From a virus, in IMG/VR virus record IMGVR_UViG_3300009093_000060, positions 1 through 48,967 of that record: a stretch of DNA of 48,967 bases; one strand, given 5' to 3'. Below are positions 12,557 to 43,271 of the stretch, one piece after another; positions within the stretch are counted from its first letter, which is position 1; each line of letters opens with the position of its first letter. The translations under genes were made by a program, and so were the position numbers. Below the pieces are notes generated by a model, which saw nothing but the letters and a program-made list of their open reading frames with translations, made no database searches and was not told where the DNA came from.

Positions 12557-12775
12557 TCAAGTTGAAGGAGAAGCGCTGTGACTGGGCGACACAGACGCAG
12601 AAGGGGAGGGTGAATGGGATGACGAGTGAGAGGGCGAAGTGCTACTGCTCGGACTCACAGACGATGATGGAGAAATTGACAGCGACGCACTCAAGCTCAG
12701 CGAGACACTCGTTGAGGGAGACGCACTCCCGCTTGGACTAACTGACCCCGACAACGACGCACTCGGCGAGAGTGA
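12557..12775 (-). repeat. Ser-X/Ser-Pro repeat coding DNA (C-terminal tail)
   Basis: Low-complexity DNA coding for about 73 residues in which nearly every second residue is Ser. It forms the C-terminus of the tail tip gene and ends in the shared tag SPSHSASPST. Confidence 0.8.
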
Positions 12776-14731
12776 CGACACTCCCACTCCTTCAGGTGTC
12801 ATCAGTGGCTCTCTGAATCGCCACGCGACTTGGATCTTGTTATCTGTCTGCCATGCAAGTTCGAGTTGGTCCGCGTCTAAGCGACAGTACCTGAGCAGGG
12901 AGATGAAGCGGAGATTAGTTGTCATTGGTGCGTCTGCGTCTAGGGTCAGCGTCTCATTCGCACCTGCGAGAGAGAACGCCGCCACTCGTCTTAACACCAC
13001 CGTTCCATTCCGGTAAACGAACGCGAGATCTCTCCTCGGTTCAGCGAGGGCAAACGCATCTGAGTAGTTCGTATCTCTCACTGTAATCTCGTCATCGCTC
13101 ACTGAGAGTAGCTCAAAATCCTCCTGCATCGTCGGCACCCAGAGGTAGTTGAGTGCTCCCACTCGCTCATAATACCACCCGAGGAACTGCGCTATGCGAT
13201 CTATTCCTTCGATCACCATGCGATAGCTGAATGTCTCACTCGCACCAGCAGTGTCAGAGTCGAAGGAGATCAGCCCAGTGCGGAAATCTACCTCACTGCC
13301 ACTTCGCTCCACCTCGTACTCGCGATTCTCACTCCAGTCGTTAGACTGCCAGATGCGCCCGTCGAACACTTCGACATCGCGATACTTGATTGTTGGGGAG
13401 AAGGGAACGATGCGGTTTGGAATGACGTGCTCGTCTTCCGGCATCAGTCGCGCAGTGATCGTCAACTCCTCAACTGCGTCCGTATGCCCGGTAATGCCCT
13501 GCTGGACTCGGAGCAATGCCCGTCGCACTGGGTAGACAATTGAGCGAAACGCAGCGTAGTTGTTGACGAGAGGCTCGTGTGTGAGTGGAATGAGCGAGGT
13601 AATCAATCTCTCCTCCCAGTGCTCGATCTCCCCGCTTGCGCTCAGTTGTCTGAACCCGATCCATGAGTCAACTTCGTAATCCTTGTAGGTGGTTGAGATC
13701 GGAGTCGTCGTTGCCCCTGAACTCAACCCCACCTGCAACTGTTCAGCGTACTGGCGAATTGGAATGAACCACTTGGCGTGCTGGTTCGCCCAGAGGAGGG
13801 CGCGCAACTTGCGTCTCTCTCGGTTGTCTCGTAGCAACTGTGTCCACTCGAATTCCCTTCTCGGTGCTTCAATCTCACTCACCGATTCCTCGTCTCCTGC
13901 CACGGCCTGAGAGATTGCTGACGAGAAGGAGATTCGCTCAACCAATGTCTCTGTCCAGTTGTGGCGGAACGGGAAGGAGATCGGGTCAGGCTCAAAGGTT
14001 GAGCGAAGGACGCCAGTTGGATTCGCGTCTGCTCTCCCGTGGAGGAACGTCGCACCAATCCCCGCTTCGTAAATCGCGAGCAGTTGCGCCTCAGTAAGCG
14101 CGTAGTCAAACACAAACGGCTCATCCACTCCACCTGCCGCCCAGACATTTCCACTCCCACTCACTCCGATGAACCACGGCGAATCCACAGTATTACGTTG
14201 TCTCAGTGCGTACTCGAAACTGTCGTTGTTGATGCCGAGGATATGACGCGGGTATTCGTCGCTGACGTTGACGGTTTCCTCCATTGCGAGTACGGCATTC
14301 ACGTACAGTCGGGCTACTGCACCATTCCTCACCCCGGCGAGGAAGTACCAAGTGTTATGCACGGGCGTCTCAGGTGCAACCAGCTCGACAAACCCTCCCA
14401 GCACCCCCCACTGCGCCTCCCTTGCCATGAGTGTCGCCGTTCCTGCGAGGAAGTCATTGCGATAGAGAATCCAGCCGCCAATTGTTGAGCCTGTCGAGGC
14501 GTCGAGTGGGCTGGAGTCTAACGCTGGAGCTTGCCCTACGCGCCCGCCGATCGCAGACGATCCTGCGTCAGTGAGAATCGGTGAAGGCCGTCCAAACACA
14601 CAATCGTTAAAGAACGTCCCGTCATGCGCGTTCCCTGACGAATCACTCATCACCGTGCCGCCAACTTCATCCAGTCGCCAGAAGGCAACGGGAAGGAGGG
14701 CGAGGACGGTATCGAGGTAGGAGAGCGGCAT
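12557..14731 (-). CDS. Tail tip protein: N-terminal LamG-like domain, Ser/Pro C-terminal tail
   Basis: A 724-residue protein. The first ~235 residues are a concanavalin A/LamG-like lectin domain (AFWRLDE, DSSGNAHDG, VDEPFVFDYALTEAQL). The next ~410 residues are a beta-rich tail domain containing REFEWTQLLRD and, near its end, WRFREPL, and are likely the structural part of the tip. The last ~75 residues are a Ser-X repeat ending SPSHSASPST. Its ATG follows the upstream stop directly (TAAATG). It probably binds host surface sugars at the distal tail. The terminal tag is shared with the tail tube protein and a head-neck gene. Confidence 0.7.
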   Translation of the reverse strand: MPLSYLDTVLALLPVAFWRLDEVGGTVMSDSSGNAHDGTFFNDCVFGRPSPILTDAGSSAIGGRVGQAPALDSSPLDASTGSTIGGWILYRNDFLAGTATLMAREAQWGVLGGFVELVAPETPVHNTWYFLAGVRNGAVARLYVNAVLAMEETVNVSDEYPRHILGINNDSFEYALRQRNTVDSPWFIGVSGSGNVWAAGGVDEPFVFDYALTEAQLLAIYEAGIGATFLHGRADANPTGVLRSTFEPDPISFPFRHNWTETLVERISFSSAISQAVAGDEESVSEIEAPRREFEWTQLLRDNRERRKLRALLWANQHAKWFIPIRQYAEQLQVGLSSGATTTPISTTYKDYEVDSWIGFRQLSASGEIEHWEERLITSLIPLTHEPLVNNYAAFRSIVYPVRRALLRVQQGITGHTDAVEELTITARLMPEDEHVIPNRIVPFSPTIKYRDVEVFDGRIWQSNDWSENREYEVERSGSEVDFRTGLISFDSDTAGASETFSYRMVIEGIDRIAQFLGWYYERVGALNYLWVPTMQEDFELLSVSDDEITVRDTNYSDAFALAEPRRDLAFVYRNGTVVLRRVAAFSLAGANETLTLDADAPMTTNLRFISLLRYCRLDADQLELAWQTDNKIQVAWRFREPLMTPEGVGVSSLSPSASLSGSVSPSGSASPSTSVSLSLSASLSISPSSSVSPSSSTSPSHSSSHSPSPSASVSPSHSASPST

Positions 14732-24309: not shown

Positions 24310-24384
24310 CTACGTCGAAGGCGACGCTGAATGACTCGGGCTCGTTGACGCGCTCGGCGACGGCGACGGTGAACCTGAAGCCGA
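24310..24384 (-). repeat. Ser/Pro repeat tag coding DNA (tail tube)
   Basis: The last ~23 codons of the tail tube gene, encoding the short Ser/Pro tail with the shared tag SPSHSASPST. Confidence 0.8.
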
Positions 24385-25161
24385 TGGCACCGCCGCGCCC
24401 GGATCGAGATAGATGAAGCGTGCGAACTGGCCCTCGGGATCGGATTGCGACCGAGTCGGGTCAGCCAACGCGGAGCCGTTAAAGGTAAACTGATTGAACT
24501 CATCGCTAATCATGCTGATCGATTCTGCTGGACTCAGCCTGACCTTAAATGCGTCCACGATCATTCGCTCGAAGTCAGAGCCGGAGTTCACCGCCGTGTT
24601 CTTGCCGATCATGCGAATCCAGATCTCAGGCGCAGCGGTCTTGAACACCCCAACCTGACGACTGGCTGCGTTGGTGTAAGTTGCGGCGATCGGCCCAGTC
24701 ATGCCCGCGACATCGCTGAACTGAAACACGCCGGACGCATCCCATGAGTACTTGGTGGTGGCGATCGGTGTGCCATTGTCAGTGAGCAAAAGCCCGGTGA
24801 CACGTCCAGTTGCACCTGTCACGGCATAGAGCGTATTGAGCGACGGCGCGCCAGCGAGCACTTGTTCTGCCGTGACCGTGCCACCAGCCAGCGCCGATCC
24901 CTCGCCACGGGTCGCAAGCTCCATGTTGGATTCGAGGAAGTAATCGACTATTAGCGTAACGCTGGAATTCAACTCCGCGTCAATGCGCGCATCTATAGCA
25001 CGTAGACCGGAATAGCTTTCCTTATGCGTTAGCTCCTCTACTGCGAGCCCGAACTCAAAGGACGGGGCATTGCCAAACCATTTCATTGGTGCGATAGGAT
25101 CGCCGTTGGCGTCTCGATTAGCCCAAAACACTGGGCCTTGACCACTCCACAATCCGGGCAT
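24310..25161 (-). CDS. Major tail (tube) protein with Ser/Pro C-terminal tag
   Basis: ATG 25161 is chosen for its GGAGGT ribosome site. A longer frame to 25233 has none. The 283-residue product sits at the tube position, directly upstream of the chaperones. Its beta-rich core has segments GLRAIDARIDAELNSSVTL and FERMIVDAFKVRLSPAE that fit a tail-tube fold. The final ~23 residues (from SGSPSPSPSAS) are the Ser/Pro repeat ending in SPSHSASPST. If this is the tube protein, every ring of the tail would display the tag many times, so the tail surface would be coated. Confidence 0.75.
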   Translation of the reverse strand: MPGLWSGQGPVFWANRDANGDPIAPMKWFGNAPSFEFGLAVEELTHKESYSGLRAIDARIDAELNSSVTLIVDYFLESNMELATRGEGSALAGGTVTAEQVLAGAPSLNTLYAVTGATGRVTGLLLTDNGTPIATTKYSWDASGVFQFSDVAGMTGPIAATYTNAASRQVGVFKTAAPEIWIRMIGKNTAVNSGSDFERMIVDAFKVRLSPAESISMISDEFNQFTFNGSALADPTRSQSDPEGQFARFIYLDPGAAVPSASGSPSPSPSASTSPSHSASPST

Positions 25162-25165
25162 GGGT

Positions 25166-25723
25166 TTACCTCCAGTTAGGTGCGTAGTGCATAAAGTTGC
25201 GATTGACTGCAATCTGCCGCGCGCTTTGAGCACAGGCGTTTTCGTATTCCTCGACGCAGTCGGCGATCTTCTCAGCTAACATGCGATGCTTATGGTAGAG
25301 ATGGTCCACCATGCCTGCGAGATGTTCCACCTTTGGGCATTCGGTTGTGATGCCGCCAACGTTCTCGATGCGCATGTAGTCATCGTAAGTCTTCAGTTCG
25401 TCTTCCTTACCGAAGCGTTTAATCAACCTGCCGCCCACCTTAGCGATGTTCTGACGGAAGCCGGGACAGCGCAATGGCATTTGAAAATACGGAGCGAAGT
25501 ACTGAAGCTGAATTGCGTTAAAAGCATCCATTGAGCGAATAAAGGCAACGCTATTCGGGTTGGACCAGTTAAAGTTAGCCACTGCTGGCTGAACTGCTTC
25601 AACCGCCGCGCCCCACACATCCGAACATAGACCACGCCCTTTGACATAAGAGAAGCGCTCCCCGAGTACGCCCACTCGTGGCCTAAGTTTGCAGCCTTCG
25701 CGAATCGCTTCTGATAGCTTCAT
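25166..25723 (-). CDS. Conserved phage protein of unknown function
   Basis: ATG 25723 is preferred because it overlaps the upstream stop, with a GAGG upstream. The longer frame runs through the neighbouring gene. The 185-residue product starts MKLSEAIREGCKLRP, a motif typical of a widespread small phage protein in neck-tail regions, and contains several Cys and His residues (CPGFRQN, TTECPKVEHL, HLYHKHR) that might bind metal. The role is not known. Confidence 0.6.
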   Translation of the reverse strand: MKLSEAIREGCKLRPRVGVLGERFSYVKGRGLCSDVWGAAVEAVQPAVANFNWSNPNSVAFIRSMDAFNAIQLQYFAPYFQMPLRCPGFRQNIAKVGGRLIKRFGKEDELKTYDDYMRIENVGGITTECPKVEHLAGMVDHLYHKHRMLAEKIADCVEEYENACAQSARQIAVNRNFMHYAPNWR

Positions 25724-27669: not shown

Positions 27670-27815
27670 TTAAGTTGACGGACTGGCTGAATGACTTGGA
27701 CTGACTGAAGCGCTCGGGGAAACACTGGTGCTCGGAGAAGCCGAGCGAGACGCCGATGAACTTGGACTGCCTGACGAGCTGGGCGAAACCGAACTGCTCG
27801 GTGATGCGCTCTGAC
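27670..27815 (-). repeat. Ser-X/Ser-Pro repeat coding DNA
   Basis: About 48 codons of repeat at the 3' end of the minor virion protein gene, ending in the shared tag and TAA. Confidence 0.8.
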
Positions 27816-28077
27816 TTACTGTGGTCAACGTCGCAGATTGCCACAATCCGTCTGCGTCAACCACGAAGAATCCCCCCGCAGGATTCATCGCAATCGATCC
27901 TTTGCCATAGGCTGACAGTTTCCCGTTTTGGATGTTGCTATCCAGTACGAGATCCGTAGTCGTCCCAATGACGATGTACTTGCCAGTTGAATCCTGACCG
28001 AGTGCGAACGCGCCAAACGTCCTTCCACTGTTCGAGTAGGTACGAGAGAGACGATTGTTGATCTTCTTGAAATTCAC
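27670..28077 (-). CDS. Minor virion protein with Ser/Pro C-terminal tail
   Basis: A 135-residue protein. A folded N-terminal ~85 residues contain a short beta-rich module (GRTFGAFALGQDSTGKYIV, FFVVDADGLWQS). The last ~50 residues are Ser-X repeat ending SPSHSASPST. Because it is in the head operon next to the capsid genes, it is a probable capsid decoration or fibre protein. The folded part matches no family I know. Confidence 0.6.
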   Translation of the reverse strand: MNFKKINNRLSRTYSNSGRTFGAFALGQDSTGKYIVIGTTTDLVLDSNIQNGKLSAYGKGSIAMNPAGGFFVVDADGLWQSATLTTVSQSASPSSSVSPSSSGSPSSSASRSASPSTSVSPSASVSPSHSASPST

Positions 28078-32954: not shown

Positions 32955-33347
32955 CTATACACTCGGACTCTGACTGCTGCTCGGCGACAAACTCGCACTG
33001 GGCACATCCACCACGCCGTAGAGATTCGTCACCTTGTACTTGTACTGCGCCGTTGCTGGCGTTGGGCCATTCTCGGACTCGTAGACATATTGCACCGTCA
33101 CTGTGCGAATCTCAAACTTGCTGCGAGGCTTCACGATGAAGTTCTGATCAGAGGTGATCCATAGGTCTACCGATGTCGAGAGCGTCGGGAAATCAGTTAC
33201 GGGAAGAATCGCAGTCTTGCTCGCTTCATCGTCGATGCGATAGGTGGCTGAGTCAGGCGTCACTGGATCGTTGTTCTCATCGAAGAACGCCACCGCGAGC
33301 GGGAACTCGGTGCGTTCGTTTACGGAGATGAGACATTCGTTAGCCAT
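32955..33347 (-). CDS. Ig-like/beta-sandwich virion protein with short Ser/Pro tail
   Basis: A 130-residue protein with an Ig-like beta-sandwich pattern (strands VNERTEFPLAVAFFD, SATYRIDD, TVTVQYVYES) and a C-terminal Ser/Pro tail of about 15 residues (VPSASLSPSSSQSPSV). Small Ig-like proteins in phage head operons bind carbohydrate or decorate the capsid. This is the shortest member of the Ser/Pro-tail group and lacks the SPSHSASPST ending. Confidence 0.6.
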   Translation of the reverse strand: MANECLISVNERTEFPLAVAFFDENNDPVTPDSATYRIDDEASKTAILPVTDFPTLSTSVDLWITSDQNFIVKPRSKFEIRTVTVQYVYESENGPTPATAQYKYKVTNLYGVVDVPSASLSPSSSQSPSV

Positions 33348-33561: not shown

Positions 33562-33810
33562 TCAATTAACTCGGTTTTCCACGTCCTCAAGTATGTCCGC
33601 GACGTACCATAAAAGCTGACCTAGCTCTTTGGAGGTTACTATCCCACCCTGAAGGACCATAACGATAGTACCGGCGATTTCTTTGGTGGGAGGCGGACTA
33701 AAGATAACTCTTCCCTGCGTCTTCTCTAACACCTGCGCCACCCCTGTCAATACTTCGTAGTCCCCGTCTTCACTAATCGCCGCTGAAATCAACGAGTCAC
33801 TTACCGCCAT
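33562..33810 (-). CDS. Hypothetical protein
   Basis: An 82-residue protein starting inside the 3' end of the glycosyltransferase gene (14-base overlap, with AAAGGAGAT within the upstream frame as ribosome site). Two helices flank a Pro-rich turn (VIFSPPPTKEI). No known function, but the overlap links its expression to the enzyme. Confidence 0.55.
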   Translation of the reverse strand: MAVSDSLISAAISEDGDYEVLTGVAQVLEKTQGRVIFSPPPTKEIAGTIVMVLQGGIVTSKELGQLLWYVADILEDVENRVN

Positions 33811-35596
33811 TTGCCATCTCCTTTAGAAATTCTTGCACTCGCCCGTAGATTAACGGCCAACCCGCAATCTGTCCATCAAATTCCTCCCAGCCAATCGCGT
33901 TCTTCTTGTTTCTGAAGCTCTCGACTGAGAAATGCGGCACTGTCAGCGTCTGCCCGTGTCCGGTGATGTCGATGTTGGGAAACTCCGACTGCCAGTTGGC
34001 GATCTTCTCGTCGCCGAACTTCCCGCGCGTACCCGGTTCGTAGGCCATGCGCTTCACGTCGAACACGCCGTCATTCGCCTCAATCAACTCGACCCGACGC
34101 TTGTAGTGAGCAAGGAGGAGGAGTCGATTCGCGCAGATGCCAGAGACTTGCTGGAGATTCGCCGTACGAACTGCGTGGCCGTCGGAGTAACGGACCCTCC
34201 AGACGTTGGTGTTATAGAAAATTGTCTGATCGTCAGGTGGAACGAACTCGAAGTGCGACGGATGATACAGGACATCCGACTCACACAGGAACACGTAGTC
34301 AGCCGTCGATCGCTCCAGTCCAGCGAGAATCTGGTAGTGCATCGTCCCGCCGGACTTCTCTCGATCCAGCACCAGCGTCCAGTCGCCGAAGTCGGTACGT
34401 TGCAGGGAGACGCAGCCGAGCTCGTGGCCGTTGGTGGCTGATTTGAGGTTGTTGCGCGCAGCGAGTTCCAGTGTCTGATCATGCGAGCCGCACGTGTAAT
34501 AAAGCGCCAGACCGCGTTGCTTGCGTTGAATTGCAGGAGCGTAAGGGATGGACTTTCCTTGACGACGATAGAACTCGTCTCCTGCTTGCTTCACCTGTTG
34601 ATAGACCGGGTTGTCGTCACTCCAGTCCGGCACGGGCGTATACTTCTCTATAAGCCAACTAAGAGGATGCATCTGCTTGGGCCATAGGTTCTTCAGCCAT
34701 AGCTCTCTGCCACGCGCCTTAGCTCGTTCCTTTCTGCCCCCGTCAGCATACGGAAACCCAATACCTCCCACTCTAAAGAAATGCGCAAACCATGTCCCTT
34801 GATTTACCTTCAACTCCCCGCCCGACAGCCAAGTCTTGCAGGCGATCTCCGTTCCCATATCGCCCCACGAGCCAAAAGAAGTATCACACGGCTCAATCTC
34901 AAAATATCTATCTCGTCTCATAGCCCAACAAGCACCGAGAAGGCTCATGGTGTCATGGATCTGGCCTTGCGTTTCAGGTCGAAACGGAACGTCATGCTTC
35001 TTGCAGTAGTTCTCATCTGACGTGTAAGCACCCCAGTAGGCAAAGTCGAGGTTGGTATCAAACCTCCACGAGTGCGTATAGGCCCGTCGCCTTCCTTCCT
35101 GTCCGTCGCGCGGCTTCCAGATCTTCACTTGTTTGAGATAGCGCGAGTTACATTTCTCGCAGCGTGCGGGTTTCGGAGACTGATCCTTCGTCCAGTCGCA
35201 GCGCTTGCACTTCCACTCGAATACTTGCAAATTGAACTGACCGGGGACCACTGTCCAATGCGGCTCAAAAGTGGCGAGGAGTTTCTCGTCGAAGTTGGCG
35301 TCCAATGCGCAATGTGCGTCTAACTTGCAGACGAATTCCCCGCGCGCAACTCTCGCTGCTTCATTCGTCGCCGCACGTTGACCAATGGATTTACGATGCT
35401 GAATGACGGTGAGCCGGGGATCGATCGGGAGGGGCTGGTTGGGCCATTGGTTGTCATACCCGTCCAAAACTACGACGCATTCAGTCTTCTTGGACGTGTT
35501 CGCGAGGACGTTGACAACTGTTTCGTGGAGAAGATCGATGTCGTAGTAGAATTCATTGCGAGCGGGGATAAGAACCGACAAGTGGTAGCGTGTCAT
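33797..35596 (-). CDS. Two-domain glycosyltransferase, GT-A fold, polypeptide GalNAc-transferase-like
   Basis: A 599-residue protein. Residues 1-~280 form a GT-A domain: SVLIPARNE at the N-terminus, then LDAHC at 92-96 in the metal-site position. A zinc ribbon with Cys 130, 133, 146 and 149 is inserted in the domain. WGDMGTE at 244-250 and HFFR at 272-275 lie where GT27 enzymes have W-G-x-E-N-x-E and H-x-F-R. A motif WPKQ..P..WLIE (from 305) is shared with the GT-methyltransferase protein. Residues ~360-599 are a second GT-like domain with SDVLYHP (440-446) as a possible metal site. No signal peptide is seen, so it acts in the host cytoplasm on sugar-nucleotide substrates. The proposed acceptors are the Ser repeats of virion proteins in the same operon. 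Sugar and acceptor are inferred, not shown. Confidence 0.75.
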   Translation of the reverse strand: MTRYHLSVLIPARNEFYYDIDLLHETVVNVLANTSKKTECVVVLDGYDNQWPNQPLPIDPRLTVIQHRKSIGQRAATNEAARVARGEFVCKLDAHCALDANFDEKLLATFEPHWTVVPGQFNLQVFEWKCKRCDWTKDQSPKPARCEKCNSRYLKQVKIWKPRDGQEGRRRAYTHSWRFDTNLDFAYWGAYTSDENYCKKHDVPFRPETQGQIHDTMSLLGACWAMRRDRYFEIEPCDTSFGSWGDMGTEIACKTWLSGGELKVNQGTWFAHFFRVGGIGFPYADGGRKERAKARGRELWLKNLWPKQMHPLSWLIEKYTPVPDWSDDNPVYQQVKQAGDEFYRRQGKSIPYAPAIQRKQRGLALYYTCGSHDQTLELAARNNLKSATNGHELGCVSLQRTDFGDWTLVLDREKSGGTMHYQILAGLERSTADYVFLCESDVLYHPSHFEFVPPDDQTIFYNTNVWRVRYSDGHAVRTANLQQVSGICANRLLLLAHYKRRVELIEANDGVFDVKRMAYEPGTRGKFGDEKIANWQSEFPNIDITGHGQTLTVPHFSVESFRNKKNAIGWEEFDGQIAGWPLIYGRVQEFLKEMANGGK

Positions 35597-36290: not shown

Positions 36291-36490
36291 TTGCGCTCCT
36301 TATTGGCTACGTCAATTTCAACTCCCCAATACCTGCAAAGATTTTTCAGAATCCTTTCTGCGCGTCTTTCAGGGTTGACGATAGCCAAGTCGTTAATCAT
36401 TGCCTCTAGGTACACTTTGCGGCACTCGTCCATATTCTCAGGAGTCCAGCGATGGTTTGGGTTAGGTTCGATTGGGTCTGACGACATCAT
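36287..36490 (-). CDS. Hypothetical small protein
   Basis: ATG at 36490 (or the adjacent ATG 36487) overlaps the GT-methyltransferase stop and begins MMSSDPIEPNPNHRW. The 67-residue product is helical with several Arg and Cys. Longer frames starting in the enzyme gene are unlikely. No family. Confidence 0.5.
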   Translation of the reverse strand: MMSSDPIEPNPNHRWTPENMDECRKVYLEAMINDLAIVNPERRAERILKNLCRYWGVEIDVANKERK

Positions 36491-38478
36491 GGCTTCACCC
36501 ACATGAAATCTGTTGATTTGTGACCTTGAAAGATGTACCAGATCGGAATCCGGTGTGCGTTCGTGTACGCCTGCACCGCTTCGACTACACCGCCGCCAAC
36601 CCAACGCTTCTGGTCAAGTGCGTAGTAGTCATCACCGGAGACGATGCCGCCTGAGCGTACTCGTTTGGACCACTCGATGAGATCCATGATGCAGTAATCA
36701 AAAAGGTGATTCGCGTCCACGTAGACATAATCAAGATAATCGTAATCAACTGTCTCAACTGCGGCCATTGAAGTGTCGTCGTAGACCCTGACGTTGGGAT
36801 AAGGAGCGGTCTTACGAAGAGTTTCCTGACGCGCAAAGCCGTGCTTCTCCTCGGTCTTATTCTGTGGATTTCCTGAATACCTCTCCCACGGGTCAACGAG
36901 TAAGAGTTCGCACTCGGGATTTGCCTTCAGCAGCACCTCGGAATACTTTCCTTCTGCCACCCCAATCTCCGCGCCGCGCTTGAATCCCAACTCGGCAAAC
37001 AGTTGCGCCAGATCATTCCGATGAAAGTCACGTAGCTCAATCGGCATCGGCCCGCGCAGACGCTGCGGGGAGATGGAGAATTTGCGGATGAGGTAGTCGT
37101 TGAGGGCGGGAGCGGTCATTGGTGATTGCTTTAGTGATTCAACTTCTTCGATAACCTTCTCAACCTTAGACCATGCAGCCTCTGATTCTGGCGTGCGTGG
37201 CACTTGCGCCTGCCCGATGATGAGCCAGTCTTTCTCGATTCGCTCTATCGTTACTTCGTCGCCACCGTAGGAGTAAGTCAGCAACAGCACCTTCTTCTTG
37301 CCTCGGAACGGATTCTGATTAGGGCAGAGAGTGGAGTTGTTGACAACGATGTCAAGCGAGTCGTTCTGGACCAGCGACTGCAACCGTTCTCTTACGTCGA
37401 TTGAATGATCGGCGAAGGGCGGCATACTGCCGAGGATGCCGTAGCGTGCGGAGTAAATCACTAGCGACATACTGGCGCTAACAGCATCGCCAACGCCGCT
37501 CCGATCATCATTCCTACCAAGATCCATATCAGCAGTCCCGACAGAGATAAGACGTGGCCTGCGTTCCGCATACAGCACCTCCTCCCAGTTCTCCGGCCAG
37601 CTTGGCACGGGCCAGAAGTGTTCGATGAGCCACTTAAACGGCTTCGCTTGCTTGGGCCATGCGTCGTTGTAGATCCAGTTCTTTGTGAAAGTTGCGCCTT
37701 GCGTGAGCCATGCTTCAGGGAGGTGGTAGCCGCGCCCGCCCTTGCCGTCCTCGCCTTTGTATTCCTTGCCTTTATGGAGGTGGGCGTACCATGTTTTCTT
37801 ATTGATAACTCCGCGTCCGCCGCTGAGCCAACACTTCAGAAAAAGTTCCTGCGCTTCATTCCAGAATGGCCCGTAGCCCACTTCGTCCATCAGTTCCAGT
37901 TCCTGAAAGTAGCTCGCGGCCATGAACCATGATGACCCCTGACTCGACATTTCATCATCCAGATCGTACTCCGGCTTACCCGATCTCTCCCTGATGCGCT
38001 CATACCACACTTTCCCATTCAATCCTTTCCCGCCGAAGTCGTTTGGGTCATCCGGGAAGCTCAGGTAATGGTAATCAACGTCAGGCTTGCCCACATCCTG
38101 CACGGTCCAGCTCTCGGCGTTGAGCCGCTTGCGACGCGGGACGACTATCCAGTTCGGCTCCATGTCGGCCTGCAACTTAGTATCGTAGGCTTCGTCCAAC
38201 ATGCAGTGCGCGTCGAGCTTGAGCAGGTACTTTGCGCCACGAGAGATCGCGGAACCTGCGGCTGAGTTGATCGCTGCGCGAAGTCCTCTCGGCTCGCCGT
38301 GGTGGATCGTGTGCAGGTTGGGGAACTGGTCGGTGATCTCTTTCCACTTGTCCGGCCAGTAGCCTTCGAGTACCGCGATCACCTCAACTTCATCCTCGGC
38401 CTTCGTGAAGCACTCATGGATCGTTGGAAAGAGATAGGTTTCGTTACGGGAGGGAATTAAAATTGCGAGTTTAGCCAT
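36487..38478 (-). CDS. Glycosyltransferase-methyltransferase fusion
   Basis: A 663-residue protein. The N-terminal ~300 residues are a GT-A domain paralogous to the 33797-35596 protein: ILIPSRNE near the start, LDAHC at 88-92, a SSQGSSWFMAASYF acceptor-side segment at 178-191, WLSGG (217-221), YAHLHK near 231-236, and WPKQ..P..WLIE at 274-286. Residues ~300-450 are a linker or accessory domain. The C-terminal ~170 residues (from GAEIGVAEG at 502-510) are a class I SAM-dependent methyltransferase of the methyltransferase-24 type, with LLLVDPW (526-531), YVYVDANH and GGIVSGDDY. The likely product is a sugar added and then methylated, or two separate steps of one glycan pathway. It lies between the giant Ser-repeat fibre and the head genes. 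Confidence 0.8.
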   Translation of the reverse strand: MAKLAILIPSRNETYLFPTIHECFTKAEDEVEVIAVLEGYWPDKWKEITDQFPNLHTIHHGEPRGLRAAINSAAGSAISRGAKYLLKLDAHCMLDEAYDTKLQADMEPNWIVVPRRKRLNAESWTVQDVGKPDVDYHYLSFPDDPNDFGGKGLNGKVWYERIRERSGKPEYDLDDEMSSQGSSWFMAASYFQELELMDEVGYGPFWNEAQELFLKCWLSGGRGVINKKTWYAHLHKGKEYKGEDGKGGRGYHLPEAWLTQGATFTKNWIYNDAWPKQAKPFKWLIEHFWPVPSWPENWEEVLYAERRPRLISVGTADMDLGRNDDRSGVGDAVSASMSLVIYSARYGILGSMPPFADHSIDVRERLQSLVQNDSLDIVVNNSTLCPNQNPFRGKKKVLLLTYSYGGDEVTIERIEKDWLIIGQAQVPRTPESEAAWSKVEKVIEEVESLKQSPMTAPALNDYLIRKFSISPQRLRGPMPIELRDFHRNDLAQLFAELGFKRGAEIGVAEGKYSEVLLKANPECELLLVDPWERYSGNPQNKTEEKHGFARQETLRKTAPYPNVRVYDDTSMAAVETVDYDYLDYVYVDANHLFDYCIMDLIEWSKRVRSGGIVSGDDYYALDQKRWVGGGVVEAVQAYTNAHRIPIWYIFQGHKSTDFMWVKP

Positions 38479-38665
38479 CGCGCTGTCCTAAGTATTCAAT
38501 AACTGCACCAAATAACAGGTTGGTACGAAGCCAAACAGCGAACACGGCAACGGACAGGGCGACTACAGCCGCTGTCATATGCCCGGTAATCGCCATCGAT
38601 ATACCAAGTCCGGTTCCGAGGCCGCTAACCGCGCTTGCGATAAAGAACAAAGATCGACTCTTCAT
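38471..38665 (-). CDS. Small two-segment membrane protein
   Basis: A 64-residue protein with two hydrophobic segments (residues about 5-27 and 31-52). Size and topology are compatible with small holins or inner-membrane accessory proteins. It overlaps the GT-methyltransferase start by 8 bases. Function unproven. Confidence 0.6.
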   Translation of the reverse strand: MKSRSLFFIASAVSGLGTGLGISMAITGHMTAAVVALSVAVFAVWLRTNLLFGAVIEYLGQRDG

Positions 38666-38853
38666 CTCGACCGCTCCTTCTTCCGCGTGCCGTTCGTCTG
38701 CGGTTCGTTCACGTATCGATCTTTTATGTAGTCCTCTACCGCAATGACAATCTCCGCTGAGACACTCCGCCTGTTCACTGCCGCTAATTTCTTCAGTTCA
38801 GCCAGCACTTTTACAGGGAAGTAAATATGAGTATCCTTTACTCCTCGTTTCAT
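38662..38853 (-). CDS. Ribbon-helix-helix (Arc-like) regulator
   Basis: A 63-residue protein with the Arc/MetJ-type RHH pattern: a short basic strand (HIYFPVKVLAELKKLA) followed by a helix (RRSVSAEIVIAVEDYIKDRY) and a basic tail. RHH proteins dimerise and bind operators with the beta strand. It may regulate this late segment, but no operator can be assigned. Confidence 0.65.
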   Translation of the reverse strand: MKRGVKDTHIYFPVKVLAELKKLAAVNRRSVSAEIVIAVEDYIKDRYVNEPQTNGTRKKERSR

Positions 38854-38879: not shown

Positions 38880-41800
38880 TCAGTTGTCAACTGCGAATTG
38901 TACGGATGCCACTCGCGCCGCAAACACGGCTCCGGGCTTGCGTGGCACGAACGCAACCGACGACTGACGCGGCATGAAGTGAGCATGGACAACTCGTGGC
39001 AATGGACCACTCGGGCTGGCGGAATGCGAGGGGCTGAGCGACGGGCTGATGCTGAGCGAAGTGGAAGCTGAGGAAGACGACGAAGGCGAGAGACTGGGCG
39101 ACTCGCTGACGGAGATTGATGAACTAGGAGAGATACTCTGAGATTGCGACGCGCTGGGCGATTGCGAGGCTGAGACTGACTCGCTCGGGGAAGTTGAAGG
39201 AGACTCACTGGACGACGGACTCGCTGAACTGGATGCGCTACTGGATGGCGAAGGAGATCTCGACTCACTTCCGCTCGGACTGGTAGACGCGCTCGCACTC
39301 GCGCTTTCCGAGTGGCTGGGAGAGAGTGATGGCGAGGCACTTGAACTTGGACTGACACTGGCCGAAGGTGAAACCGAGAGAGACTCGCTGCTGCTCGGGC
39401 TGACGCTCGCACTCGGAGACTGACTACTACTCGCACTTGCAGATGGACTGAGAGACGGTGAAGGGCTGACTGAAGGTGAAGTTGACGAGCTTGGCGAGAG
39501 GCTTGGGCTCACGCTTGGAGAGACTGAAGACGATCCTGCACTCGGGCTCGGGCTCTCACTTGAGCTAGGGGAGGTTGAAGCTGAACTGGAACTAGACGGA
39601 CTTTGACTGGCGCTCGGACTGATTGAGGGACTTTCGCTGGCTGAAGGTGAGATCGACGAGCTGGGACTTTGACTCAACGACTCACTACTACTAGGTGAGG
39701 TGCTCGCACTCGGACTCACGCTCGGGCTCTCGGAGGATGACGGGCTGGGGGAACTGCTGGGGGATTGCGAAGCGGATTCTGATGATGATGGTGAGGTCGA
39801 AGCAGAAGGAGAGACCGAACGTGACTCACTACTGGACGGGGAGAGTGAGGGGCTGGGTGAGACAGATGGTGAGGTAGACGAACTTGGGCTTTGACTGGGA
39901 GATGGGCTCACACTCGCAGACGCACTCGAACTTGGTGATTGTGACGATGAGGGAGATTGACTAGGCGACTCACTCGTACTCGGACTCAGTGATGACGACG
40001 GACTAATCGAAAGCGACTCGCTACTCGATGGAGAAGTGGAGCTGCTCGGTGAAACGCTGGGCGACTCTGACGACGACGGACTCTGCGACGGTGAAGGACT
40101 GACGCTGGGACTCGTTGAGCTCGATGGCGAGACTGACGCAGACGGAGACACCGATAGGCTCTCACTTGAGGATGGTGAAGTCGATGCGCTCGGACTCACC
40201 GAGGGAGAAGCTGAACTGGACGGGCTCTGAGACGGGCTCGGGGAAACTGACGGGCTAATTGAACTCGAAGGTGATTGACTCGGAGAGGGCGAAACACTCG
40301 CACTCTCACTTGCAGATGGGCTTTGGGATGCACTGGGAGAGACGGAGGGGCTCGCTGACGATGAAGGTGATTCGCTTGCACTCGGGCTAATGCTGGGAGA
40401 TTCGCTCGACGAAGGGCTGGCAGAACTTGAGGGAGAGATCGAGGGCGATTCCGACGAGCTAGGCGATGCGCTGCTACTTGGTGAGATCGAAAGCGATTCC
40501 GATGAGCTGGGAGACGCAGAGCTACTTGGACTAACGCTTGCCGACGCCGACGAACTGGGAGATTGACTCGCGCTGGGGGAAACACTTTGAGACTCGCTTG
40601 TACTAGGCGACTGAGACGCAGATGGGCTCGTACTCGCACTTGCGGACGACGACGGAGACGCACTGCTACTAGGCGAAACTGATGGTGACTCCGACGATGA
40701 CGGGCTGACACTCGGGCTGGGGCTGACTGAAGGTGAGGTGCTACTACTCGGGGATGCGCTACTCGACGGAGAAACTGAGCCACTAGGTGAGACGCTCGGA
40801 CTAACCGATGAAGACGGAGAACCCGGAACCGCATCCCCGCCCCCGAAGTTGTCAAGCTTTGCCCCGCCCGCTGTTCCCATGCCGATCACGCCACCGGAGG
40901 TGTAGGTGGAGTCGGTGACGGAATCGACCAGTGCCCAGTCGTTCCCGGTGCGTTTGATGTAGACGGTAATTGTGGAGCCGACCATGCTCGCGCCGAACTG
41001 GTCGTTGTTCAGTAAGTTAGAGCCGATGCCGAAGGCGGCGATCGTTGTCGCCACGCCCGCGTCGTAGCGGATAACTGTCAAGTTAGCTCCAAAGGCGCGA
41101 ACTCCATATGCGTTGACGCTCGCCCCTAAACTGGATGCGCGGAGATATAGTTGACAGGAGCGCGTGATGCCGCTGATGTTAATCGCCGCCTGTGCGTAGA
41201 CCTCGCAGTCGGCTGCTGTCGTCGTGCCCCATGCCGCAGTTCCAGTTCCACTGGCCGAGGCAAACTGGTTGCTTACAACTACCATCCCGCCATCGCTGAA
41301 CACTGCACCGCTCCAGCCTGCAGACGGCGGCGGGCCTTCGTCAGAGCGATTCGCGTCGTCGAGAATCGGCGTAGTGGGGAAGTTAGGCGGAGGCGGAGAG
41401 GGGCTCGCGCTGGAACTAGGAGAAGTGGATGCACTCGGGGAGAGGCTGGAACTTGGACTCGGACTGCTACTGGGAGAGAGCGACGGAGAGACTGAAGCAC
41501 TCGCACTAGGACTGTCGGAGGCTGACGGAGACGCGGAGGCGCTGGGGCTAACTGAGGGAGAACCGATGATCGCGACACCACCGCCGAAGTCGTCTGCTTC
41601 GATCAGTGCGTTGCCAGCAATGATCTGGAGCTGTAAGCCAATCTGTCCGGGAGCGCCGTAAGTAGAATCCGTGATCGTCGTCTGTTTCGTCCACGCGCCT
41701 GCGCCCTGCCTGGTCCAGAGTTCGAGTTGATCCCCTGTAATACGCGCACCGATCTTGTCGCCGTCGGTGAGAGTTATTGCAACAGAGCCAATTTCAGCGT

Positions 41801-43271
41801 TGACCCCAGCGCCGGAAAACGTATACGCAATCAGATCTCCCGTGTTCCGGTAGCCGACTCCATAGCCGCTTACGTCCCCCGTCATCAGCCCGTTCATGCG
41901 CAATAACACGCGCACTTCGTCAAATACCCCAACATCAGCGTTTCTCAGGGTGACGTAAGCTTCCTGATCGGCGCTGATCGGAGCTGCGTCAAATACCCCG
42001 CTGAGAGTATTGCCGCCACCGGCCAGGCTGTCGTCTATGAAGGCAGCGTTACTACTAACCGCGAATACCCGCAGCTCACCTGCGAAGACTCGCGACCAGC
42101 CCGTCGCCGGGTCTTCATCAGCGCGGTTGAAGTTGTCAAGGATGGGCGTGGTGGGAAAGTTAGCCGGTCCAAATGAGGGAGAGGCACTACTACTCGGACT
42201 CGTAGATGCGCTAGGGCTGACTGAGAGAGAGGTACTGGATGAAGGACTGGTACTGGAACTCGGGGAGATACTGGGGCTGACACTGGAACTCGGACTAGCC
42301 GAAGACGATGGAGAGATACTTGGAGAAACACTCGCCGAAGGACTCTGACTACTACTCGGTGAGAGACTGGGTGAAGTTGAGCTGCTCGGGCTGACACTCG
42401 GGCTCGGCGAGACACTGGGACTGACACTGCTACTCGGAGAGACACTCGGACTGGGCGAGATCGAAGGAGAGACGGAACTCGATGGTGATGGGCTACTTGA
42501 GGGAGAGAGACTTGGACTGTTCGAGCTTGACGGGGAAACTGAAGGTGAAGGACTGACTGACGCACTCGCACTTGAGGATGGACTCACACTGGCCGATGGG
42601 CTAGCTGACGCTGACGGACTAAGGCTAGGGGAAGGACTGACACTCGAACTCGCGCTTGTCGTATTGAACGTGAGCGTATCGGTGAGGATGAGATTCGGGT
42701 TGTTCGCAGTGGTGACACCATCCGTGATCGCAAGGTCGGTAGCTGAGTCAGAGCCGATACTAATGGATCCACCATGCGTGTTCGTCCCACCCGGATCGCC
42801 GTTGAGTCCCACTTCGACGACGATGCGATCTCCTGCAACCGTCGTGTAATTCCCCGCCACACTCGCCACGGTCGCGCTTCTGGTCGTGAGGGAGCTGGAG
42901 GTTTGCTCGGTCCCGTCCTGACGTTTCGCAATCAGGGTCTTCTGTAACGTCGAACCATTGAAGATATAGACCGCCCACGTGAAGAAGAGATTGTTTGCCG
43001 CTGCGGTCTCGGCTTCGCGCATGACGATCGAGATGTTCTGCCCACCCGTGATAGTCTGGCCTGCGTCAAGGGGATGCGAGATGAACTGGGCGAGGATGAT
43101 GTCGAGTTGCGTGGAGACGGCGGAGGTGCAGTTCCGCGTGGTCATGGTGGAGGAGAGTTTGGTGGTGCCGGCAGCGAAGCGCGCAAATTGCGTCTGGTCC
43201 GTCCAACCCGCGTTGGGAGTGGGGGTGATCGGACTGAAGGCAGTCGATTCGAGATAGAGTTTCGTTGCCAG
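38880..43271 (-). CDS. Giant Ser-X repeat fibre protein
   Basis: A 1463-residue protein read from CTG 43269-43271. The start is chosen because GAGGAGG lies about nine bases upstream, the peptide then reads (M)ATKLYLESTAFSP as in other phage fibres, and the only ATG (43145) has no ribosome site. N-terminal domain: residues 1-~205. Repeats: ~205-365, ~569-627 and ~815-1420. Two homologous jelly-roll/LamG-like domains lie between them (~366-568 and ~628-814). Both start NFPTTPILD and contain TDSTY; they end DDFGGG and DNFGGG respectively. A short hydrophobic C-terminal part (HAHFMPRQSSVAF...) follows. In the third repeat 25 consecutive 16-residue units can be counted. It lies directly after TerL. 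Likely a surface or side fibre, displaying a Ser-rich, probably glycosylated rod. The opposite strand encodes acidic shadow frames. Confidence 0.8.
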   Translation of the reverse strand: MATKLYLESTAFSPITPTPNAGWTDQTQFARFAAGTTKLSSTMTTRNCTSAVSTQLDIILAQFISHPLDAGQTITGGQNISIVMREAETAAANNLFFTWAVYIFNGSTLQKTLIAKRQDGTEQTSSSLTTRSATVASVAGNYTTVAGDRIVVEVGLNGDPGGTNTHGGSISIGSDSATDLAITDGVTTANNPNLILTDTLTFNTTSASSSVSPSPSLSPSASASPSASVSPSSSASASVSPSPSVSPSSSNSPSLSPSSSPSPSSSVSPSISPSPSVSPSSSVSPSVSPSPSVSPSSSTSPSLSPSSSQSPSASVSPSISPSSSASPSSSVSPSISPSSSTSPSSSTSLSVSPSASTSPSSSASPSFGPANFPTTPILDNFNRADEDPATGWSRVFAGELRVFAVSSNAAFIDDSLAGGGNTLSGVFDAAPISADQEAYVTLRNADVGVFDEVRVLLRMNGLMTGDVSGYGVGYRNTGDLIAYTFSGAGVNAEIGSVAITLTDGDKIGARITGDQLELWTRQGAGAWTKQTTITDSTYGAPGQIGLQLQIIAGNALIEADDFGGGVAIIGSPSVSPSASASPSASDSPSASASVSPSLSPSSSPSPSSSLSPSASTSPSSSASPSPPPPNFPTTPILDDANRSDEGPPPSAGWSGAVFSDGGMVVVSNQFASASGTGTAAWGTTTAADCEVYAQAAINISGITRSCQLYLRASSLGASVNAYGVRAFGANLTVIRYDAGVATTIAAFGIGSNLLNNDQFGASMVGSTITVYIKRTGNDWALVDSVTDSTYTSGGVIGMGTAGGAKLDNFGGGDAVPGSPSSSVSPSVSPSGSVSPSSSASPSSSTSPSVSPSPSVSPSSSESPSVSPSSSASPSSSASASTSPSASQSPSTSESQSVSPSASQSPSSSASASVSPSSSASPSSSESLSISPSSSASPSSSESPSISPSSSASPSSSESPSISPSASESPSSSASPSVSPSASQSPSASESASVSPSPSQSPSSSISPSVSPSPSQSPSSSASPSVSPSASTSPSSSESLSVSPSASVSPSSSTSPSVSPSPSQSPSSSESPSVSPSSSTSPSSSESLSISPSSSLSPSTSESPSQSPSSSQSPSSSASASVSPSPSQSPSSSTSPSVSPSPSLSPSSSESRSVSPSASTSPSSSESASQSPSSSPSPSSSESPSVSPSASTSPSSSESLSQSPSSSISPSASESPSISPSASQSPSSSSSASTSPSSSESPSPSAGSSSVSPSVSPSLSPSSSTSPSVSPSPSLSPSASASSSQSPSASVSPSSSESLSVSPSASVSPSSSASPSLSPSHSESASASASTSPSGSESRSPSPSSSASSSASPSSSESPSTSPSESVSASQSPSASQSQSISPSSSISVSESPSLSPSSSSSASTSLSISPSLSPSHSASPSGPLPRVVHAHFMPRQSSVAFVPRKPGAVFAARVASVQFAVDN
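39010..40828 (-). repeat. Long Ser-X repeat (includes 25 units of 48 bp)
   Basis: The third and longest repeat block. From about 40765 down to about 39566 it consists of 25 consecutive units of 16 codons with the pattern S-x-S-P-S-S-S-x-S-x-S-x-S-P-S-x (the sixth residue varies in a few units). Positions 8 and 16 vary most, and Glu appears often at position 8. The rest is irregular Ser-X repeat. Confidence 0.85.
41390..41566 (-). repeat. Short Ser-X repeat (linker)
   Basis: About 59 codons of Ser/Pro repeat joining the two jelly-roll-like domains of the giant fibre protein. Confidence 0.75.
42175..42660 (-). repeat. Ser-X/Ser-Pro repeat (first block)
   Basis: About 160 codons of Ser/Pro-rich repeat after the N-terminal domain of the giant fibre protein. 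Confidence 0.8.

Follow-up and report, generated by a model that had tools for sequence, protein, structure and literature searches.

A phage glycosyltransferase-methyltransferase fusion beside serine-repeat genes, and a possible mucin-like O-glycosylation module in environmental tailed phages

Introduction

One of the closest described counterparts of the enzyme analysed here is A064R of the chlorovirus PBCV-1, a single protein made up of a Rha-transferase, a second Rha-transferase and a 2-O-methyltransferase, which builds and methyl-caps a virion-protein glycan (PMC9614988). A preliminary description of the present locus had held that methylation of a virion glycan by a fused glycosyltransferase (GT) and methyltransferase (MT) was undescribed; A064R does exactly this, and the claim fails. 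In phages, a passage in PMC11600133, citing Freeman 2023, describes cluster O mycobacteriophages in which glycosyltransferases lie beside an O-methyltransferase and are reported to modify the capsid and tail tube. The BFVD database also lists a protein with GT and methyltransferase domains in Catovirus. Both a GT-MT fusion for a virion glycan and phage loci that combine a GT with an O-methyltransferase are already known.

Two further systems are relevant. Bacterial serine-rich repeat glycoproteins have long Ser repeats and adjacent GT genes, with initiating enzymes of the GT-B type and a secretion system. The GT27 polypeptide GalNAc-transferases (GalNAc-Ts), best known from animals and apicomplexans, start mucin-type O-glycans by transferring GalNAc from UDP-GalNAc onto Ser/Thr with retention. 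They bind Mn2+ through a DxH motif and a later His, and a C-terminal ricin-type lectin domain is usual in the family, but not universal. In the open-access literature we found no report of phage-encoded mucin-type glycosylation, and no account of a phage GalNAc-T-like enzyme tied to alternating-Ser tracts of the virion.

The locus analysed here lies in a stretch of viral DNA of 48,967 bases (the window). As in A064R, one virus protein contains a GT and a C-terminal class I SAM-dependent MT. A064R, however, has two Rha-transferase domains, of which the first is GT34-like, and it acts on an N-glycan of an algal virus capsid, whereas the fusion protein has a single GT27-like GT (no second GT domain was found in it) and a DUF3395-like domain, and comes from a tailed phage with Ser tracts. 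The locus shares with the cluster O mycobacteriophages phage GTs adjoining an O-methyltransferase, but in the passage cited above their GT and MT are separate genes. Like the bacterial serine-rich repeat loci it has a gene for a long Ser-repeat protein beside GT genes, but here it is phage genes that encode the repeats, and in place of the unrelated GT-B enzymes of the bacteria there is a GalNAc-T-like GT. The features of the locus are listed in Table 1.

Table 1. Features of the fusion gene and its surroundings, in window coordinates.
Feature	Position	Strand	Basis
Fusion protein, 663 aa: GT27-like GT, DUF3395-like domain, Methyltransf_24	36487..38478	-	translation, Pfam, model
GT domain, aa 1-305, polypeptide GalNAc-T-like	37564..38478	-	profile, conservation, model fold
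Beta-rich middle domain, aa ~338-422, DnaJ-like_C11_C/DUF3395-like	37213..37467	-	Pfam, model, L016 homologue
Methyltransferase domain, aa 455-663, Methyltransf_24	36490..37116	-	Pfam, conservation, model
Second, longer GT, 599 aa: N-terminal GT27-like domain and ~250-aa C-terminal domain	33797..35596	-	
Ser-repeat protein (SPSxSx...), 1421 aa, proposed glycan acceptor	38880..43145	-	same adjacent gene type in L001-L004
SPSxS tail, C-terminus of major tail protein (phrog_807, ORF 24310-25233)	24313..24393	-	
SPSxS tail, C-terminus of tail assembly protein (phrog_1082, ORF 12557-14731)	12560..12785	-	
SPSxS tail, C-terminus of 135-aa protein in structural gene region (ORF 27670-28077)	27673..27810	-	
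Short SPSxS tail, 130-aa protein between long GT and portal-like gene (ORF 32955-33347)	32958..33005	-	

Results and discussion

The fusion gene and its conservation

The preliminary description reported a chain of 663 residues with a GT-A domain and a methyltransferase, and translation and Pfam confirm it. In the minus-strand translation the motifs LDAHC, GAEIGVAEG and LLLVDPW are at residues 88-92, 502-510 and 525-531, and the plus strand of 36487-38478 is crowded with stops. Pfam matches Glycos_transf_2 at residues 6-124 (E 6.7e-9, above the curated cut-off) and Methyltransf_24 at residues 504-618 (E 1.3e-11, 45.7 bits against a cut-off of 26.3). Both Pfam and the structural model place the GT at the N-terminus and the MT at the C-terminus.

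The complete GT-DUF3395-MT chain occurs in eight further IMG/VR contigs, and its identity to the IMG/VR counterparts is 58-86%. Comparison of the window protein with three relatives gives dN/dS values of 0.08-0.21 for both enzyme domains, a sign of purifying selection; among the closest relatives the middle domain shows faster amino-acid change than either. Because relatives keep the reading frame and it is under purifying selection, it is a genuine conserved gene and not a chance one.

Matching loci in IMG/VR number at least 508 for the GT and at least 553 for the MT. A tblastn search of the fusion against 50,697 annotated phage records found no relative of the GT in this cultured-phage collection. 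The only match was to MZ666939.1 (Lokiarchaeota virus WyrdV1) at 12746-13174, which is the O-methyltransferase of an Asgard archaeal virus, with 31% identity to the MT domain. Occurrences in genome contigs number two, one in a Planctomycetota MAG and one in an unclassified MAG, which are too few for naming a host.

The glycosyltransferase domain

A PDB search using the single fusion sequence gave no match. A profile of 33 GT homologues, however, matched polypeptide GalNAc-Ts with E 2.4e-13 across profile positions 3-258, whereas most other GT-A matches to it stop within the first 80-100 positions or so. When the structural model (mean pLDDT 88) is compared by fold with the PDB, every one of its 50 best matches is a GalNAc-T, at identities of about 14-20%, and the catalytic domain superimposes on GalNAc-T2 with a TM score of 0.67 and an rmsd of 3.4. 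A generic GT2 identity was therefore dropped, the profile and the fold both favouring a GT27-like enzyme. Taken by itself, the second half of the domain resembles GalNAc-Ts weakly (E 0.04), and for this reason the GT is called GT27-like rather than GT27, its activity being predicted from sequence.

D89 and H91 (the DxH motif) and H233 are invariant in the 33 homologues and align to the metal ligands of GalNAc-Ts, and are thus candidate metal ligands; E208 aligns to the Glu of the GalNAc-T WGGEN motif. The resemblance to GT27 therefore covers the catalytic fold, the DxH, the third His, the WGGEN-like Glu and Ser/Thr/Pro-rich candidate acceptors. The differences are that the enzyme is encoded by a phage, is fused to an MT and has no Pfam match to a ricin-type lectin domain anywhere in the fusion protein, the DUF3395-like domain occupying that place. 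Since the GalNAc-T matches span the catalytic domain, in both profile and model, the GT probably acts directly on Ser/Thr of proteins.

The methyltransferase domain

The hallmarks of a class I SAM-dependent MT are present, namely motif I (E504 and G506) and an acidic residue after strand 2 (D529). In the METHYLTRANSFERASE domain, E504xG506, D529, D583, D588, H591, D599, G615 and D617 are invariant in 31 homologues, and correspond to the SAM site together with candidate metal or catalytic residues of this class. The preliminary description had allowed that the domain might lack SAM-binding residues; motif I and the acidic and His residues are in fact retained throughout these homologues.

No curated function-specific NCBIfam family matched the domain. 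The nearest PHROGs family is phrog_2675, labelled 'DNA methyltransferase'. This identity was rejected for the MT, given that Pfam assigns Methyltransf_24 and the residues of that class are conserved. In phiAsp2, the protein Pas34 (L332:28936-30726) is recognised by its fold as a Methyltransf_24 protein, and its gene is directly downstream of a GT gene. The Pfam assignment and the position of Pas34 beside a GT gene make the PHROGs label doubtful, and it may be wrong.

The middle domain and the full-chain model

Between the GT and the MT there is a further domain, which the preliminary description overlooked. DnaJ-like_C11_C matches residues 339-415 of the window protein with E 7e-6 and 26.3 bits, just under the cut-off of 27.1, and the L016 homologue scores 32.3 bits, above it. 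The DUF3395-like domain changes partners: at L016:4670-6160 it is joined to an MT alone, the GT being free, and at L024:9001-10215 it is joined to a GT alone, in a chain without an MT.

An AlphaFold model built on 89 sequences has a mean pLDDT of 88, with the GT domain mostly above 90; an earlier model from five close sequences (pLDDT 45) was discarded. The middle domain is flanked by disordered linkers at residues 315-335 and 423-449, and the pTM of the full chain is 0.56. The model gives no support to the shared active-site channel that had been envisaged for the full chain. Because the linkers are disordered and the pTM is as given, it favours tethered but independent active sites.

Serine tracts and gene neighbourhood

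In the 1421-residue protein the longest run with Ser at every second residue is 214, whereas in 500 shuffles it never exceeded 17. The tract uses both TCN and AGY codons for Ser, which implies that selection keeps Ser at the protein level. A tract of this kind could possibly present a one-sided Ser face. An SPSxS-type tail is retained in five homologues of the major tail protein. Extreme alternating-Ser tracts are also seen in contigs L182 (up to 333), L173, L120 and L090; in these and in the window the residues between the Ser vary.

The window contains the genes of a tailed phage, including those for a major head protein, a tape measure and a major tail protein, and a terminase-like gene. 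The fusion and GT genes are positioned between the terminase-like and portal-like genes. The gene order GT, MT, long GT, Ser-repeat gene is conserved, with a median gap of 185 bp between the GT and the repeat gene.

Phages encode enzymes that modify surface glycans, and the GT-A fold by itself says nothing about the acceptor. It could therefore be argued that the GT/MT pair alters a host surface glycan, such as lipopolysaccharide or S-layer sugars, to block superinfection, the virion not being the target. This is very unlikely: no membrane anchor is evident in the fusion chain or its model, the closest GT matches are protein and not lipid glycosyltransferases, and the genes are strongly linked to Ser-repeat genes and structural-protein tails, in addition to their position between the terminase-like and portal-like genes.

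Two small reading frames separate the Ser-repeat gene from the fusion gene (about 38484-38853, minus strand); by eye, one resembles a short ribbon-helix-helix DNA-binding protein and the other a two-helix membrane protein. A reading of the window ORFs recognised no sugar-nucleotide pathway gene. A role of the GT/MT locus as a defence system was rejected, there being no PADLOC match.

Association of the enzymes with serine tracts

When loci of 18 kb or more are anchored on the GT, an alternating-Ser tract is present in 27/27 and an MT in 26/27. MT-anchored loci of at least 18 kb contain a GT in 33/33 and a tract in 32/33. These anchored loci partly overlap or share contigs, and the counts are thus not fully independent. 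In the reverse direction, contigs were retrieved using only DNA coding for SPSASVSPS, the working tract pattern, in which Ala and Val are fixed; 11 of the 17 carry a GT. In control contigs with simple Ser repeats a comparable GT match was found in 0/27 (P = 1.6e-6 for the difference between the two sets), with one partial match at E 1e-4. The control set was drawn with a degenerate AGY-based SPS pattern and consists mostly of simple repeats read in other frames.

The 6 tract contigs of the 17 that have no GT include several short fragments, but there are also long ones of 87 and 190 kb, and tract and GT are thus linked strongly but not absolutely. These six would also be expected if the tracts were flexible linkers or adhesins that bear no glycan and the GT served another site on the virion, such as the capsid or the body of the tail tube, the association then coming from a shared host range or lineage. 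All the contigs do belong to a single broad environmental set, and they may have a common ancestry. We nevertheless consider this improbable, since the module spans contigs of widely differing size, some above 100 kb, the tracts adjoin the GT, and the mixed codon usage indicates that Ser is maintained in the protein.

Proposed function

On balance we think it likely that the fusion is a virion-glycan enzyme, in which the GT glycosylates the Ser tracts and the MT caps the sugar by O-methylation. The GT27-like domain would act in the manner of a GalNAc-T, using Mn2+ and a nucleotide sugar of the host to place a sugar on Ser (or Thr) side chains. The acceptors would be the Ser-alternating tracts of the adjacent 1421-residue protein and those at the C-termini of the major tail protein and of other structural proteins, and the neighbouring long GT would probably modify more sites or extend the glycan. 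The flexibly tethered class I MT would then use SAM to methylate a sugar hydroxyl and so form the cap, the fusion serving to hold both enzymes at a fixed ratio and near a common acceptor. The fold and family of both domains, the conserved catalytic residues, the association of the genes with the tracts and the repeated occurrence of GT-MT fusion are observed; we infer the acceptor, the identity of the sugar, the placement of the methyl group on the sugar, its position there and the biological role, which may be shielding or adsorption. Sugar transfer followed by O-methyl capping had already been suggested for this protein, and it is still the best reading, in view of the GT-A and class I MT domains, the intact SAM-motif residues and the adjacent Ser-repeat proteins of virion type. 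The cooperation of the two active sites is the part that finds no support, given the disordered linkers and the pTM of the model. Other points that speak against the proposal are the weak GalNAc-T match of the second GT half, the missing ricin-type lectin domain, the breadth of the Methyltransf_24 family, the tract contigs that lack a GT, and the failure to recognise a sugar-nucleotide pathway gene on reading the window ORFs.

A broader proposal, to which we give an even chance, is that widespread undescribed environmental tailed phages carry a full mucin-like O-glycosylation module, consisting of GalNAc-T-like GTs, a glycan-capping MT and, as acceptors, virion proteins in which Ser alternates hundreds of times. 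If so, a bacterial virus would have a methyl-capped mucin-like coat, with densely O-glycosylated repeat tracts exposed on tail proteins and other proteins of the virion, and the GalNAc-T family would serve phages too. The methyl caps could hinder glycan-binding or glycan-cutting factors of the host. The number of matching GT loci, set beside the lack of a GT relative in the cultured-phage collection, would make this a common yet unstudied virion modification. Compact GalNAc-T-like enzymes, some of them already fused to an MT, could also be obtained from these phages.

Fused and separate genes

Separate GT and MT genes in relatives, for which a search had been suggested, were found, and most relatives have them as neighbouring genes. 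In most distant relatives the two are in the same direction with a median gap of 172 bp. GT-MT fusions without DUF3395 are found in L060, L112 and L163, and long GT-MT fusions without DUF3395 in L123, L129, L133, L135, L141 and L149, so the long type of GT is itself fused to an MT in other phages. In the GT tree, short and long GTs split with a support of 98, and fusions occur on both sides. At fewest, 6 label changes are needed on the GT tree and 4 on the MT tree, and support within both trees is moderate. Judged from these sequences, there are at least three fusion architectures, on two GT clades, and the fusion repackages a GT/MT module.

These observations bear on a further alternative, that the GT modifies the Ser tracts while the MT targets something other than a sugar, such as a protein side chain or a small molecule, the two being together simply in a shared virion-modification locus. 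Methyltransf_24 is a broad family in function, and the acceptor of the MT is not readable from its sequence; the nearest PHROGs family bears a DNA methyltransferase name, and the two domains are flexibly tethered. However, a GT accompanies every one of the long MT-anchored loci, the MT has been fused to both GT clades in several architectures, and the PHROGs label is itself doubtful, with the Methyltransf_24 protein Pas34 encoded next to a GT. We therefore regard this alternative as unlikely, and prefer an MT that caps the sugar.

Some phages have two MT genes, which recalls the two methyltransferases of PBCV-1 (PMC9614988). The C-terminal domain of the long GT (about 250 residues) contains a conserved 'E.DV.YHPSHF' motif and has no Pfam match; it is possibly a second transferase. 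On L043, a contig labelled as a bacterial MAG, an MT and a long GT form a cluster with three short GTs, and this contig is probably a provirus or a mis-binned phage.
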